From contig CAJPSU010000004.1 in the NCBI GenBank assembly GCA_905373345.1, positions 1 to 21,105 of the forward strand: a stretch of 21,105 nt of DNA, written 5' to 3'. Positions within the stretch are counted from its first letter, which is position 1; each line of letters opens with the position of its first letter. The position numbers were made by a program, and so were the translations under genes. Under the pieces are notes generated by a model. It was given only the letters and a program-made list of their open reading frames with translations. It searched no databases and was not told the DNA's origin. Source of the stretch: Candidatus Saccharimonadota bacterium. Lineage in GTDB: Bacteria; Patescibacteriota; Saccharimonadia; Saccharimonadales; Saccharimonadaceae. Below are positions 3 through 9,505 of the stretch, one piece after another.

Positions 3-254
3 AACGAAGAGCGCGCTGGGTTTCAAGCATATCTTGACGCTGGGTTTATTGATGTTTTCCGCGCCGCCCACCCGCACGAAGCGAACGCTTACACTTGGTG
101 GACGCATTGGGCGAACGCCCGGGCGCGCAACGTTGGCTGGCGGATTGACTACTGGCTGGCATCTGCCGCAATCGCACCGCACGTACAAAACCCAACAATT
201 CACGCCGAACAAATGGGCAGCGATCACTGCCCGGTGAGCATTGAATTTATATAA
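3..254 (+). CDS. xthA: Exodeoxyribonuclease III / AP endonuclease, C-terminal part (cut by window start)
   Basis: An open frame enters from the left edge and runs 83 codons to TAA. It has no start inside the window. The peptide carries the two C-terminal signatures of the ExoIII (EEP) fold: a W-R-I-D-Y-W-L block (GWRIDYWL), and the catalytic G-S-D-H-C-P-V motif whose Asp-His pair acts in phosphodiester cleavage, nine residues before the end. The TWW...ARARN stretch before it is also typical of the family. The enzyme cuts abasic sites and trims 3' ends in base excision repair. The stop lies about 140 bases before the first strong hairpin, so transcription may continue to the hairpin at 394-415. 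The symbol rests on motif recognition; ExoA-type AP endonucleases of the same family cannot be separated from so short a piece. Confidence 0.88.
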   Translation, partial: NEERAGFQAYLDAGFIDVFRAAHPHEANAYTWWTHWANARARNVGWRIDYWLASAAIAPHVQNPTIHAEQMGSDHCPVSIEFI

Positions 255-4577: not shown

Positions 4578-4682
4578 TAATCGCCGAGGCGTAAACTCAG
4601 AGCGTACACGCGCTTCAAGAGCGAGAAGTACGAGACCCGCAAAACTCTCACCAGCAAGTAGCCTGCGATACTTGATATGCGG

Positions 4683-4688
4683 TACAAT
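4683..4688 (+). promoter_or_regulatory. -10 box of the helicase-nuclease gene
   Basis: GGTACAAT ends 7 bases before ATG 4696, the same placing as at dus and cysS. No convincing -35 is seen. It is divergent from the promoter at 4569-4577. Confidence 0.55.
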
Positions 4689-4695
4689 AAATGCA

Positions 4696-7600
4696 ATGGC
4701 AACTTTTCACACGCGCTACAACAAACTTAACGCCGCCCAGCGCGAGGCGGTCGATACAATTGACGGACCGCTGCTCGTAGTGGCGGGACCAGGTACGGGC
4801 AAAACTGAGTTACTGAGTATGCGCGTCGCAAATATTCTGCATAAAACCGACACGCTGCCAGAAAACATTTTATGCCTCACGTTTACCGACAGTGGCGCAA
4901 CAGCAATGCGAGCGCGCCTGGCGCGTATTATCGGGCCTGATGCCTACAAAGTAGCAATTCAAACATTTCACAGTTTTGGCACAGAAACGATCAACCACAA
5001 CAGCGAATATTTTTACCATGGCGCGGCATTCAAACCGGCTGACGATTTAACAATGCACGCATTCATGACGCAAATTTTCGACGATCTGCACTATGATAAT
5101 CCGCTCGCAAGCAAAATGAATGGCGAATACACGCACCTGCGCGACGCTATGCAAGTGATTAGCGAACTAAAGCAGGCAGGCCTGACAGACAATGAATTGC
5201 TGCAGATTATTGCAAGCAACGATGAGACGCTTGACGCAGTTGAAGCAAATGTAGCATCAATTTTCGCAAACAAAATCAGCAAAACAACAATCACGCTCAT
5301 CGCGCCCATCGCAAAGGTGGTCGCCGAGCTGCCGCTGCCGAAATTACCGCCTGCAATTACGCCGCTTGCAAACAATTTGGCACTTAGCTTAGCGCATGCC
5401 TTCGATGCCGCGGTTGAATCCGGCAAAACCACGCCAATCACCGCCTGGCGCAACGCCTGGATGGAGAAAGATTCAACCGGCGCGTTTGTGTTTAAGGATC
5501 GTAAGCGCCATGCTAAGCTGCGTGCTATGGCGCCAGTATATAACCGCTACCGCGAACTGATGCAAAAAGCGGCGTTATACGATTACGATGACATGATCCT
5601 AAGTGTCGTGCAAGCAATTGAGCGATCGCCTGAACTCAAATTCAATCTACAAGAACGCTATCATTATATCCTCGTTGATGAATTTCAGGACACGAATTTA
5701 GCGCAGCTACGTATTCTGTTTAACCTCACCGACAATCCGGCAGGCGACGCGCCAAATATTATGGCGGTTGGCGATGACGACCAGGCAATTTACAGCTTTC
5801 AAGGTGCGGACGTTGGCAATATTCACCGATTCCGCGAACGCTATCCAAATTACCGCCATGTCGTACTCACTGAAAACTACCGCTCAGCGCAAACGATCCT
5901 TGACGACGCACGCGCCGTCATTACGCAGGCAAGCGGACGCTTAGAAACAACGATGGAGATTAATAAACAATTAACATCGCATGTGGCAGAAAGTAAGATG
6001 GTTGAATTGCACGAACATACTACGCCCGCAGACGAACGTGCCTGGATCGCAAAACATATCGCCGAACAGATTGCGCGTGACACTCGCCCAAGCGACATCG
6101 CTGTAATTAGCCGACGACACCGCGATTTGGTCGAGCTACTGCCATATCTCCATGAGCGAGGCATTGCGGTCAATTACGAACGGCGAGATAACGTGCTAGA
6201 TGACGAGCGTATCATGGCAATCGAGCTGCTTGCACGCGCTGTTGTCGCTATTGCCGACGGACAGCACAACGAAGCCGACAGCCTACTGCCCGAACTTGTG
6301 TCGCATCCAATGTACGATTTCTCGCCTGAAACGATCTGGAAACTAAGCGTCAACGCCTACCGCAACCACACATCATGGATTAATACCATGCTTGCAACGC
6401 CCGCGCTCGCACCATTTGCAGCATGGTTGCTGGAGCGGGCAAGGGCAGTCGCGCACGAATCGGTTGAAGAGTTTATTGACGAGCTCATCGGCGTGCCAAA
6501 CAATAAGAAGCGGCAATTTACATCACCGCTCTACGAGCATTATTTCAGCGCAGACGTACTCGCAAAAAATCCCGAAGCGTACCTTGAAGCGCTTGAAGCC
6601 CTGCGCACAATCCGCAGCAAACTGCGCGACTATCGCGGCGACCATCTCACCATCGCCGATTTCGTCGACTTCATTGACGACTACCGCCAGCTTGATACGC
6701 CGATTACCAGCGTCCGCCGCCGCAGCGATACAATCGACGACGCCATCAACCTGATGACCGCCCACAAGTCTAAAGGGCTTGAGTTCGACACTGTTTACGT
6801 CATTAATTCCATCGACGCGCAATGGGGCGAACGCGTCCGCGGGCGCAGCCGCAACATCAGCTACCCGGAAAATATCACCATTGCGCCGAGCGCCGACACC
6901 TACGATGAGCGCCTGCGCCTCTATTTCGTCGCTATGACGCGCGCGAAACGCCAACTGTTTTTAACGTACGCGCGCGCCGATCTAAATGGCAAGGATACGC
7001 TCGTCGCTAGCTTCCTGACTGGCGTGAATTTGCAGCCAATCGTACACCGCACGCCAGAAACAGTCGCGCAGTTAACCGCGCAAGCGCAAACCGCGTGGCA
7101 TGACCGCATTATCCGTAAGCCGACCGCTAGCATGAAAGCATTGCTCGCGCCAATGTTGGAACAGTACAAGCTTTCCGCTACACATCTCAATAATTTCATT
7201 GATATTTCGCACGGCGGGCCGCAAGGATTCCTGATGAATAATTTGCTGCGCTTTCCACAAGCGAAAAGCGCGGGCGCCAGTTTCGGCACTGCTATTCACG
7301 CCGCATTGCAGCGCGCCCACACCCACTTGAGCGCCACCGGCGAACGTCGCCCAGCCGAAGACGTCATCGGTGATTTTGTCCGCGAACTGCACGACCAGCG
7401 CCTCAGTATAGACGAATTCAACCACTACGCTAAGCGCGGTACCGATGCGCTTAGTAAATTCTTGCACGCCGAATACGACAGCTTCACGCCTGCGCAAAAA
7501 GCTGAGCTTAGCTTCGCGTCGCAAGGTGTTACGCTAGGCGATGCCCGCTTGACCGGCTCGCTTGACCTCGTTGATATCAACGACAATCATATTTTTGTAA

Positions 7601-7977
7601 CGGACTACAAAACTGGCAAGCCAAGCACAAGCTGGACAGGGCGGGGCGATTACGAAAAAATCAAGCTGCACAAATATCGCCAACAGCTTATGTTCTACCA
7701 ATTGCTCTGCCAGCACTCGCGCGATTACGCCAGCTACGAGTTTGACGGCGCGATCCTGCAATTCGTTGAGCCGGATTCGCATGGCAATATTCACAGCCTC
7801 GACCAAACATTCAGCACTGAGGAGCTTGCACAATTCGCTATGCTCATCGCTGCGGTCTGGCGCTGTATCACCACGCTCGAGCTGCCAGACGCGAGCGATT
7901 ACTCCGCGGATTATAAGGGTATGCTGCAATTTGAGAAAGATTTGATCGCGGGAACCAAGACAAGCGCACAGAACTAG
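4696..7977 (+). CDS. UvrD/PcrA-type superfamily 1 helicase fused to a RecB-like PD-(D/E)XK nuclease
   Basis: A 1093-residue protein. Helicase motifs appear in order: Walker A GPGTGKT (about 31-37), LCLTFTDSGA (Ia), VDEFQDT (Walker B, about 327-333), VGDDDQAIYSFQGA (III, about 358-371), ENYRS (IV), TAHKSKGLEF (V, about 688) and VAMTRAKRQLF (VI, about 745). The C-terminal 230 residues are a RecB-type nuclease: GASFGTAIH (about 860-868), GSLDLVD (Asp 957), DYKTGK (Asp 970, Lys 972) and QQLMFYQLL (about 996), all key residues intact. Such fusions unwind and resect DNA ends, in the manner of AddAB/AdnAB; this may be the end-processing enzyme if RecBCD is absent. ATG 4696 is chosen because it lies 7 bases after a -10 box; an in-frame TTG at 4672 lies upstream of that box and is rejected. 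Confidence 0.93.
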   Translation: MATFHTRYNKLNAAQREAVDTIDGPLLVVAGPGTGKTELLSMRVANILHKTDTLPENILCLTFTDSGATAMRARLARIIGPDAYKVAIQTFHSFGTETINHNSEYFYHGAAFKPADDLTMHAFMTQIFDDLHYDNPLASKMNGEYTHLRDAMQVISELKQAGLTDNELLQIIASNDETLDAVEANVASIFANKISKTTITLIAPIAKVVAELPLPKLPPAITPLANNLALSLAHAFDAAVESGKTTPITAWRNAWMEKDSTGAFVFKDRKRHAKLRAMAPVYNRYRELMQKAALYDYDDMILSVVQAIERSPELKFNLQERYHYILVDEFQDTNLAQLRILFNLTDNPAGDAPNIMAVGDDDQAIYSFQGADVGNIHRFRERYPNYRHVVLTENYRSAQTILDDARAVITQASGRLETTMEINKQLTSHVAESKMVELHEHTTPADERAWIAKHIAEQIARDTRPSDIAVISRRHRDLVELLPYLHERGIAVNYERRDNVLDDERIMAIELLARAVVAIADGQHNEADSLLPELVSHPMYDFSPETIWKLSVNAYRNHTSWINTMLATPALAPFAAWLLERARAVAHESVEEFIDELIGVPNNKKRQFTSPLYEHYFSADVLAKNPEAYLEALEALRTIRSKLRDYRGDHLTIADFVDFIDDYRQLDTPITSVRRRSDTIDDAINLMTAHKSKGLEFDTVYVINSIDAQWGERVRGRSRNISYPENITIAPSADTYDERLRLYFVAMTRAKRQLFLTYARADLNGKDTLVASFLTGVNLQPIVHRTPETVAQLTAQAQTAWHDRIIRKPTASMKALLAPMLEQYKLSATHLNNFIDISHGGPQGFLMNNLLRFPQAKSAGASFGTAIHAALQRAHTHLSATGERRPAEDVIGDFVRELHDQRLSIDEFNHYAKRGTDALSKFLHAEYDSFTPAQKAELSFASQGVTLGDARLTGSLDLVDINDNHIFVTDYKTGKPSTSWTGRGDYEKIKLHKYRQQLMFYQLLCQHSRDYASYEFDGAILQFVEPDSHGNIHSLDQTFSTEELAQFAMLIAAVWRCITTLELPDASDYSADYKGMLQFEKDLIAGTKTSAQN

Positions 7978-7981
7978 CCGC

Positions 7982-8010
7982 CGCGCAGATCACACTGATC
8001 CACCTGCGCG
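7982..8010 (+). other. Hairpin after the helicase gene
   Basis: CGCGCAG and CTGCGCG form a 7-bp stem with GATC/GATC complementarity inside the loop, a few bases after the stop codon. No T-run follows, so it is at best a weak terminator or a 3'-end stabiliser. Confidence 0.35.
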
Positions 8011-8089
8011 AAACGAGCCTGGCACGCCCCGGCCCAGCGCGCAGCAATCATTAAAAATATCCTAATCAACCCAAATTATAGCAATAAAC

Positions 8090-8118
8090 TTGACCAACCC
8101 TGCAGAGCATGGTACGAT
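8090..8118 (+). promoter_or_regulatory. Promoter of the structured RNA
   Basis: TTGACC (8090-8095), exactly 17 bases, then TACGAT (8113-8118), which is preceded by TG-G to give an extended -10. The expected start is near 8125. No open frame with a ribosome binding site follows; strong hairpins begin within 10 bases. Confidence 0.75.
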
Positions 8119-8181
8119 ACAAATGCTCCAACTGAGCGTTTCGGGTGCCCTCCAATGGGGACACTCGAAACGCTCTGGTAC

Positions 8182-8262
8182 GGGCGCGTATGGCAACCAG
8201 CTTGCGCGGGGAGGTATGTCCTTACGCGCAAGCTGTGGCAGGTTCGATTCCCGCCGCGCCCA
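8182..8262 (+). ncRNA. tRNA-like module within the structured RNA
   Basis: A 7-bp acceptor-like stem GGGCGCG (8182-8188)/CGCGCCC (8255-8261) is followed by an unpaired A (8262) in the discriminator position; CCA is not encoded. The T-arm is GCAGG-TTCGATT-CCCGC (8238-8254, one A-C mismatch) and carries the universal GGTTCRANNCC pattern. There is no normal D-arm: TGG-CAA-CCA fills that place. The anticodon arm is replaced by a perfect 9-bp helix GCTTGCGCG (8200-8208)/CGCGCAAGC (8225-8233) with a 16-base loop. It cannot decode as a standard tRNA. The layout (acceptor, no D-stem, long helix, T-arm) is like the tRNA-like domain of tmRNA, or the tRNA mimics of bacterial Y RNAs, without their diagnostic parts. 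Confidence 0.65.
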
Positions 8263-8426
8263 CTGGGGTCGTTCGTCTTATCGGGGTGACGGACGACGGT
8301 GGTTAGCGGGAGTATAGCAACGACGCTACGCTCCCCGAGCATATGCTCCCACCCGGAGTGGAAGATCTTCCCTTCTTTCACTCCGCCCTTCCTCATAGCT
8401 CCGGCATCACTGCCGTTTTGAGCCTC

Positions 8427-8463
8427 CCCCTATCTCAAAAACGAGATAGGGGCTTATTTATTT
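8427..8463 (+). terminator. Intrinsic terminator of the structured RNA
   Basis: CCCCTATCTC (8427-8436) pairs perfectly with GAGATAGGGG (8443-8452) around a 6-base loop, followed by CTTATTTATTT. The dus promoter starts 4 bases later. Confidence 0.9.
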
Positions 8464-8466
8464 CCG

Positions 8467-8475
8467 TGGTACAAT
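8467..8475 (+). promoter_or_regulatory. Extended -10 promoter of dus, leaderless start
   Basis: TGGTACAAT; its final AT plus the next G spell an ATG (8474) that overlaps the box and cannot be in a transcript started here. The next in-frame ATG (8483) is 7 bases after the box. Confidence 0.65.
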
Positions 8476-8482
8476 GACAAAG

Positions 8483-9505
8483 ATGAAATCATTTTGGAGT
8501 AATCTGCCGCAACCATTTTTCGCGCTTGCGCCGATGGAAGCGGTGACAGACATCATATTCCGCCATGTCGTGCAGCGGGCAGGCGCACCGGACGTATTTT
8601 TCACCGAATTTGCTAATGCGACAGGTTGGGTACATGCCGGTGATAAAGCAATCGCCGGACGGCTACTTAAAACTGGCGACGAGCACCCGCTAGTAGCGCA
8701 AATCTGGGGTGGTGAGCCGGGCGACATGGAGCAATTCGCGGCGCATTGCGCGCGGCTTGGCTTCGACGGTATCGATATTAACATGGGTTGCCCGGCAAAA
8801 AGTGCTATCAAATCCGGTGGAGCGGCGCTGATTCGCCGCCCAGACGTCGCAGTTGCCGCTATTCATGCGGCTAAAACCGCCGGACTACCCGTCAGCGTCA
8901 AGACGCGGCTCGGCTACACGCACGTCAATGAATGGCGCGAGTGGTTGCAAATATTATTAGAGCAGAACATCGTTAATCTAACTATTCACCTGCGGACGAA
9001 AAAAGAAATGAGTAAGGTGCCAGCGCATTATGAACTGATTGACGATATTGTCGCGCTGCGTAACGCGGTAGCGCCGCATACATTACTAACAATTAATGGC
9101 GACATACGCGACCGAGAGCATGGACTAGCGCTCGTATCTGAGCACCCCGGCGTCAACGGCATTATGATTGGACGGGGCGTGTTTGCGAACCCGTTTTGCT
9201 TCGCTGCAAACGACGCCGGGTGTTTGCATTCTCAGAACAATCTGGAGCAAAACGAAACTATTTCGACCAATAACGATAGCGCAGTAATTTGGTGCGCAGA
9301 ATTATTTGATCTCCTCAATTACCATCTTGACCTCTTTGATCGCTACCAGCCGCAAACCGGACGTCCATTCGAAACCCTCAAACGCTTCTTCAAAATCTAT
9401 ATCAAAGGCTTCGACGGCGCAAAAGAACTGCGTGATCAGCTGATGCATATGGCGTCAACCAATGAAGTGCGCCAGATCCTGCGTACTCATTCAACTACTC
9501 TATAG
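8483..9505 (+). CDS. dus: tRNA-dihydrouridine synthase family protein
   Basis: The 340-residue FMN-dependent enzyme would reduce uridine to dihydrouridine in tRNA D-loops. Visible family features are the N-terminal ALAPMEAVTD, the catalytic cysteine in INMGCPAKS (about C103), SVKTRLGY (FMN/phosphate contact) and a C-terminal NGDI...GIMIGRGVFANPF, the TIM-barrel phosphate-binding end. The usual TIHGRTR is TIHLRTKKE here, a modest departure. After about residue 240 an all-helical tail fits the tRNA-binding domain. ATG 8483 is preferred to ATG 8474, which overlaps the -10 box. It is followed 54 bases later by cysS, which has its own promoter, so the two are neighbours but not necessarily one operon. 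Which Dus subgroup (A, B or C) it belongs to is not decided by eye. Confidence 0.88.
   Translation: MKSFWSNLPQPFFALAPMEAVTDIIFRHVVQRAGAPDVFFTEFANATGWVHAGDKAIAGRLLKTGDEHPLVAQIWGGEPGDMEQFAAHCARLGFDGIDINMGCPAKSAIKSGGAALIRRPDVAVAAIHAAKTAGLPVSVKTRLGYTHVNEWREWLQILLEQNIVNLTIHLRTKKEMSKVPAHYELIDDIVALRNAVAPHTLLTINGDIRDREHGLALVSEHPGVNGIMIGRGVFANPFCFAANDAGCLHSQNNLEQNETISTNNDSAVIWCAELFDLLNYHLDLFDRYQPQTGRPFETLKRFFKIYIKGFDGAKELRDQLMHMASTNEVRQILRTHSTTL

Follow-up and report, generated by a model that had tools for sequence, protein, structure and literature searches.

A predicted RNA locus with tRNA mimics between uvrD and dus in Saccharibacteria

The gap between the genes for a UvrD-type helicase and a tRNA-dihydrouridine synthase (Dus) in the window, by which we mean the whole stretch of 21,105 nucleotides analyzed here, raises the question of what kind of RNA it might encode. 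An earlier note on this DNA had proposed a stand-alone RNA of about 340 nt that carries a tRNA-like module and is of unknown class. The features concerned are as follows.

4672..7977, plus strand: UvrD-type helicase with a PD-(D/E)XK domain, the upstream neighbor (Pfam)
8090..8118, plus strand: promoter-like site, TTGACC, 17 nt, TACGAT, with TG before the second hexamer; recurs in relatives G001 and G010
8134..8175, plus strand: 5' hairpin with 14 pairs (GAGCGTTTCGGGTG/CACTCGAAACGCTC) and further inner pairs (fold prediction)
8181..8184, plus strand: apparent deletion junction, with CGGG at both ends of about 415 nt in G001; G010 is alike
8182..8262, plus strand: tRNA-like module with discriminator A8262, followed by CTG and not CCA (sequence, fold, and a weak Rfam match)
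8268..8297, plus strand: 10-bp hairpin directly 3' of the tRNA-like module; identical sequence in G001
8354..8385, plus strand: 12-bp hairpin of the 3' domain (fold prediction)
8427..8452, plus strand: intrinsic-terminator-like hairpin of 10 bp with a T-rich tail (consensus scan); recurs in G001 and G010
8474..9505, plus strand: Dus, the downstream neighbor (Pfam)

The segment from 8113 to 8463 is predicted to fold at −172.6 kcal/mol (z = −10.33; none of 100 shuffled sequences reached this stability), and its elements are present in the sequence, which bears out the proposal of a structured RNA with many hairpins. We regard it as a strongly folded putative transcription unit. The promoter-like site, which had been called good, scores 9/12 against the consensus and recurs in both relatives; the scan of 7900 to 8600 on both strands found two such sites where 0.5 were expected. 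The proposed 10-bp terminator is likewise present and recurrent, with a compensatory swap (T-A to C-G) in its stem in G010, but its scan count (one, against 0.9 expected) is not above chance. Given these counts, both signals rest mainly on their recurrence in relatives. ARAGORN reported no tRNA or tmRNA gene in the whole window, Rfam at gathering score gave no match across its 21,105 bases, and RNase P RNA, SRP RNA, and 6S RNA gave none up to E = 10 over 7960 to 8600. The statement that the locus matches neither a decoding tRNA nor tmRNA, RNase P RNA, or SRP RNA thus holds at the Rfam cut-off.

Beyond dus lies the gene for a cysteinyl-tRNA synthetase, and farther off are two P-type ATPases, an AI-2E-type transporter, a SulP-type permease, a two-component pair, and an FtsX-type permease. 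Judged by dus, the best-scoring named relatives are Candidatus Saccharibacteria, including oral taxa 348 and 352. We rejected a leader of dus as the identity of the segment, given that a terminator-like hairpin lies between the two and dus seems to own a −10: an extended −10 (TGGTACAAT) just before the start (window 8463 to 8483) would probably make the dus mRNA nearly leaderless. As a separate observation, the words ATGAGATA and TGAGATAA occur in 12/73 and 10/73 gaps, and in several loci they were read in the position before dus.

The module of the window and its nearest relatives

Folded alone, the module at 8182 to 8262 reaches −45 kcal/mol (z = −3.58), and none of 200 shuffles was as stable. 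At loose settings over 7960 to 8600, the Rfam tRNA model (RF00005) matched exactly these positions at 24 bits (cut-off, 29; E = 0.015), alongside one chance match on the opposite strand. The perfect acceptor stem (8182–8188/8255–8261, 7/7 pairs) and the discriminator A (A8262) are as first described. The T-arm (8238–8254, with the T-loop at 8243–8249) is present but not quite textbook: A8240 faces C8252, leaving 4/5 pairs, as in G001, while G010 forms 5/5. A regular D-arm is indeed missing, although a 3-bp mini-hairpin (TGG-CAA-CCA, 8191–8199) could form in its place. The anticodon arm is replaced by a helix with the 16-nt loop noted before (8209–8224), but of 10 bp (8199–8208/8225–8234) and not nine.

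This non-decoding helix reads AGCTTGCGCG/CGCGCAAGCT in the window (10/10 standard pairs), GACTTACATA/TATGTAAGCT in G001 (9/10), and AGCTTGCATG/TATGCAAGCT in G010 (10/10), and between the window and G001 both sides have changed at pairs 6, 8, 9, and 10. The comparison uses a five-sequence MAFFT alignment for the T-arm and helix of these three; the arms of the other two (G004 and G179) are unaligned in it. The helices of the module thus appear to be kept through compensatory change, as judged from three sequences and possibly reflecting in part a single template-switch event. As to membership in RF00005, the module scores below the family cut-off, its 10-bp helix and 16-nt loop stand where a tRNA has a 7-nt anticodon loop with U33, and no CCA is encoded (A-CTG). 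We conclude that the tRNA mimic in the window is real, structured, and non-decoding. It may still undergo CCA addition or bind EF-Tu, but it lacks the encoded CCA that 49/49 sampled genuine tRNAs have.

A DNA search of 99 relatives gave matches in seven, among which only G001 and G010 contain the whole locus; the other five share short words, and those inspected were T-arm words of ordinary tRNAs or terminator pieces. The pattern GGGCGCGTATGGCAACC...GCTGTGGC had no matches in viral contigs and none in genome contigs, from which near-window records were possibly excluded. Identity to G001 is 93% over query positions 82 to 371 and 86% over 1 to 85 (78% and 82% for G010), and in both genomes the query splits into two pieces about 410 to 420 nt apart. 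The approximately 415 nt absent from the window hold AAGGAGGTG, an SD, a small frame upstream of the module (60 aa in G001, 63 aa in G010), additional hairpins, and a helix that immediately precedes the module. Because the long form is present in both relatives, a deletion in the window is the simplest history, and by its sequence the window locus appears to be the shortened product. The 5' arm reads GAGCGAATCC in G001, where its predicted partner lies within the segment absent from the window, and GAGCGTTTCG in the window, where it pairs over 14 bp with the next segment; this change fits the deletion history, and a template-switch mutation could also give it. The G001 RNA folds with a z of about −10, as does the window RNA.

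The absence of a gene, as first stated, is therefore true of the window, but a small frame stands at the same place in G001 and G010, and the RNA taken as stand-alone, though noncoding in the window, seems to be the deletion form of an RNA of about 750 nt with a small gene. Since the window keeps the RNA part with the small frame gone, the RNA may serve a function independently of that frame. Six protein clusters represent the G001-type frame: P0001 is full-length, P0006 is short, and P0002 to P0005 contain, by reading, shifts or deletions. With these altered or short forms, the small frame looks dispensable in this lineage. With one member as the query, the G001-family frame was found in 9/295 family genomes. 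In G010 (locus L054), an extra small unit was read upstream of the RNA, about −1300 to −900 from dus, consisting of a promoter-like site, an SD, a 65-aa frame (MFSFKEAAKIV...), and a terminator-like hairpin.

The uvrD-dus site across Saccharibacteria

Of 249 family genomes that were at least 90% complete, 235 yielded a dus gene. The locus set comprised 94 loci, four others, and the window (99 in all), of which 76 passed and 61, including the window, had uvrD and dus in order; the 23 dropped loci were those in which dus was not found (their regions held about 60 bases of it), and distant genera were thereby lost. The uvrD-dus gap measures at least 300 nt in 57/61 loci, with a median of 792 nt over all 61. 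In the three loci with gaps under 60 nt (L088, 48 nt; L132, −7 nt; L133, −9 nt), uvrD and dus nearly touch, and the RNA locus is thus dispensable. Sixteen loci from beyond the clade (L206 to L221) contained nothing that matched the final 300 residues of the window helicase, nor any ARAGORN tRNA before dus; in L214, inspection of the sequence showed the end of a UvrD-like helicase a short way ahead of dus and no island.

SD-led frames of 35 to 80 aa were present on the dus strand in 51/57 long gaps (72 frames) and on the opposite strand in 20/57 (30 frames); the window enters the 51 through a frame at 8299 that is probably spurious. Recurrent families included the G001/G010 type (seven members), a VRNxD type (six), zinc-ribbon types (five, four, two, and two), and others (four, three, and two). 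Thirty-five frames were single, and one two-member cluster, which joins the window frame at 8299 to G001, is probably spurious. Of six representative small proteins, none reached the Pfam cut-off and one gave a weak match.

Rfam scans of 57 loci (a set distinct from the 57 long gaps, with 44 common to both) yielded 34 tRNA, tmRNA, or tRNA-Sec matches in 24 loci, 30 above the family cut-off and four below it (one tRNA-Sec, three tmRNA), with three matches to other families (Plastid-ycf2, YrlA, and RsmW) set aside. All 34 modules share the strand of dus and precede that gene; wherever uvrD was found, they follow it. With 33/57 loci lacking a detectable module, the module is not obligatory or is often too diverged for Rfam, which undercounts: up to E = 10 it assigned G001's own module to neither tRNA nor tmRNA. 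In a further 20 named loci, scanned at gathering score only, eight matches fell in six loci, all upstream of dus and on its strand; three of the six repeat earlier genomes, and the other three (L228, L231, and L233) do not encode CCA.

As controls we used 49 tRNAs from 173 matches in four genomes (G001, G010, G050, and G147), namely, 29 of the 30 best loci (the 30th, L184, being an island module) and 20 at 54 to 60 bits among the matches listed; the weakest modules (21 bits) score below all of them. All 49 controls encode CCA and have U33 in a 7-nt loop. Among the modules, 11/34 had U33 in a 7-nt loop (stem of at least 4/5 pairs), 6/34 had CCA, and only 4/34 (L060, L061, one of L063, and L115) had both; at 54 bits and above, the range of the weakest controls, both marks occurred in 2/14. 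The loops CCAAAAG, CCATCAA, CGAGCAA, and TCACTCA, for example, have no U33, and in L114, L099, L105, and L107 insertions fall in anticodon arms or D-loops while the acceptor and T-arm are spared. C74 is kept in 31/34 modules, C75 in 9/34, and A76 in 19/34. Given 4/34 modules with both marks versus 49/49 genuine tRNAs, the majority of modules are, on these sequence marks, tRNA mimics; as far as these two marks can tell, the four may be ordinary tRNAs. What the earlier note called an "unknown class" is a single instance within a variable group of tRNA mimics at this chromosomal site.

Two further loci types were noted by inspection. L061 (1356–1423) and L063 (1357–1424) carry tRNA-Cys(GCA)-like units with CCA at the same place in two species, which by reading have no regular D-arm and unusual T-loops. 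In L079 of G147 (2143–2518), three modules occupy one gap, two of them with the complementary loops GCGCCCC and GGGGGCG, and a YrlA match (32.8 bits; cut-off, 69) spans part of them.

The modules could be decayed tRNA genes or attachment-site remnants accumulated in a long intergenic region. Many do resemble ordinary tRNAs with damaged anticodon loops, that of L115 looks like an intact tRNA-Glu, and the small frame is altered in several database variants (P0002 to P0005). We nevertheless consider such decay quite improbable: acceptor stems and T-arms remain paired, 34/34 modules lie on one strand, and Pfam found no integrase domain in the 12 main window proteins. The retention of C74 with loss of C75 also speaks against simple decay and would suit a cut by an RNase Z-type enzyme, which CCA blocks in some bacteria.

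A second type of the locus is marked by a 3' motif, GTCCGTCTCACATTC, that recurs in other genera. Its exact pattern (CYTGTCCGTCTCAC) occurred in 10/245 genomes, once in each and beside dus in 9/10 (G287 was not placed), versus 1/245 for the backward control; single copies at this one site led us to reject a mobile element. The motif follows a 13- to 14-bp helix whose 5' strand (e.g., ACAGGAATAGTGC) lies about 365 to about 950 nt upstream. Over 13 sites, 167/182 cells of this closing helix pair, with double changes in 10/14 columns, and 0/2000 whole-strand shuffles pair as well. The count was made on ungapped strands (MAFFT shifted L087) and covers 13 of 15 sites, with L076 and L100 left out for a poor partner and the 5' partner of L072 read by eye. 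Each partner is the best within about 1 kb, so 12-of-14 matches are weak alone, and the strength lies in the shared motif and the double changes. G001-family frames also stand inside the second type (L094 by clustering, L072 by protein search), and we therefore treat both types as one system at one site, of presumably common origin. At L065 in G018, a G001-family frame with the same kind of closing helix precedes a longer frame with no dus found, and the uvrD-dus site is thus not absolute.

Such ornate folding would also suit a large RNA particle or RNP in which the mimics are architectural pieces (elbow, kissing loops) and no cutting takes place, on the model of GOLLD with its linker tRNAs or YrlA with its tRNA-like effector domain. 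The z of about −10 for both the window and G001 RNAs, the double changes in the closing helix of other genera, the complementary module loops of L079, and the subthreshold YrlA match there are all consistent with it. On the other side, the embedded SD-led frames would need to be translated out of a compact particle, and the number of Rfam-detected modules varies from none to three per locus. We hold an architectural role to be possible but rather unlikely and rank it second to a handling or cutting signal.

Candidate roles of the mimics

RNase P, RNase Z, TruB, and Dus need the parts that the modules keep, and the ribosome and the synthetases need those that are dropped. For this reason we favor, though at somewhat less than even confidence, the reading of the mimic as a handling or cutting signal on a small-gene transcript, recognized through its acceptor and T-arm. 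Of the partners suggested in the earlier note, RNase P/Z is the one that we retain as a candidate. The window RNA would then be a shortened version of a structured RNA that evolves fast and has been retained between uvrD and dus by a clade of Saccharibacteria. In its full form, this RNA would be transcribed as one unit from its own promoter to its own terminator and would carry a small frame (mostly 45 to 65 aa) translated from a strong ribosome-binding site, several hairpins, and often at least one tRNA mimic. The mimic would retain what processing and modification enzymes grip (the acceptor stem, the T-arm, and often the D-arm) and give up decoding, through a loop without U33 or extra arms, and usually the encoded CCA end too. 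tRNA enzymes for which acceptor and T-arm suffice would bind the mimic and probably cleave it: RNase P might cut before 8182 and an RNase Z-type enzyme after 8262, and Dus or TruB may act on it as well. Such cutting would separate the small-gene mRNA from the structured 3' part and protect the ends.

In favor of a handling signal we count the apparent helix compensation, the strand and position of the modules, the loss of U33 and CCA, the spared acceptor and T-arm, and the SD-led frames. Against it we count the 33/57 loci without a detected module, the dispensable gap, the compensation seen across three sequences, the 4/34 modules that may be ordinary tRNAs, and the loss of C75, which weakens RNase P contact.

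The turnover at the site invites yet another explanation, in which a variable mimic soaks up tRNA-targeting toxins or phage enzymes, the small proteins act as partners, and an arms race drives the fast change. A single chromosomal site with strong turnover of modules and small frames would fit, as would mimics that keep tRNA bodies and alter the anticodon loop. Yet most known tRNA-cutting toxins recognize that very loop, which the mimics lack, and a PADLOC-DB search with ten other main proteins of the window brought up nothing beyond weak matches at the domain level (best E = 1.7e-5, for the response regulator), so that we regard a decoy as the least likely of the explanations considered.

The locus may represent a new bacterial RNA class, a hypervariable chromosomal transcript on which non-decoding tRNA mimics serve as punctuation or handles for tiny, fast-changing protein genes and which persists after the gene has gone; we advance this only tentatively, as doubtful but a real possibility. 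In this clade of very small bacteria, a single place on the chromosome offers dozens of natural variants of a tRNA mimic. Comparing them shows what survives once decoding is given up: the acceptor, the T-arm, and C74, and to a lesser extent U33, C75, and the anticodon arm. The recognition rule is thereby directly testable. The same site also holds several families of small proteins.

Comparison with known RNA families

In the titles and abstract openings of the open-licence PMC literature, we found no description of an RNA locus between uvrD and dus, and one may be in print elsewhere. GOLLD and ROOL, both of which have Rfam models, gave no Rfam match in the window or the 57 scanned loci. They are alike in being large, ornate, and often near tRNAs; one study describes tRNAs in the linker of some GOLLD RNAs and reports that GOLLD binds ribosomes in pull-down experiments (PMC12286853). 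Their setting is phage or prophage, whereas the present locus is chromosomal, beside the housekeeping genes uvrD and dus, and unlike those of GOLLD its tRNA units are mostly non-decoding.

YrlA (RF02553), which acts with Rsr/Ro60, is likewise a modular RNA with a non-decoding tRNA-like domain, and one report gives it as a substrate of DusA and TruB (PMC8394870). Here the neighboring gene encodes a Dus, which is suggestive, although position alone is no proof. The window locus is longer, and its relatives contain small frames. RF02553 gave no match in the window even at E = 10 and one subthreshold match in a relative (L079). A Ro60-like partner, which the earlier note had suggested, was not borne out: no TROVE protein was found in 60 relatives, against 1/14 control genomes (Deinobacterium). 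We rejected identity with YrlA for want of a Ro60 gene in these 60 relatives.

A close parallel in layout is tmRNA (RF00023), which shares a tRNA-like module with acceptor and T-arm, a long helix for the anticodon arm, and no full D-arm, and the relatives G001 and G010 also carry a reading frame on the same RNA. Their frame differs in lying 5' of the module, with its own SD and start, and a tag frame between tRNA-like halves is absent, the window module being contiguous from 8182 to 8262. No RF00023 match was reported in the window (one lower-scoring match of the same clan was omitted by the tool), and those in relatives' loci (G010, 30.6 bits; G004, 26; G179, 21.3) all fall below the cut-off of 47. 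Above that cut-off, tmRNA is found elsewhere in G001 and G010, with an encoded CCA. The alanine identity pair of tmRNA, G3-U70, is absent from the window (3-70 is G-C); by reading, the G004 module has G-U at this pair. A second tmRNA was rejected, with the frame outside the module and no match at the cut-off. Few bacterial tRNA mimics are known, and tmRNA and Y RNA each opened a pathway; to our knowledge, no kind of RNA other than tmRNA and the class proposed here would, by design, combine a frame that is translated with a tRNA-like body in a single molecule.
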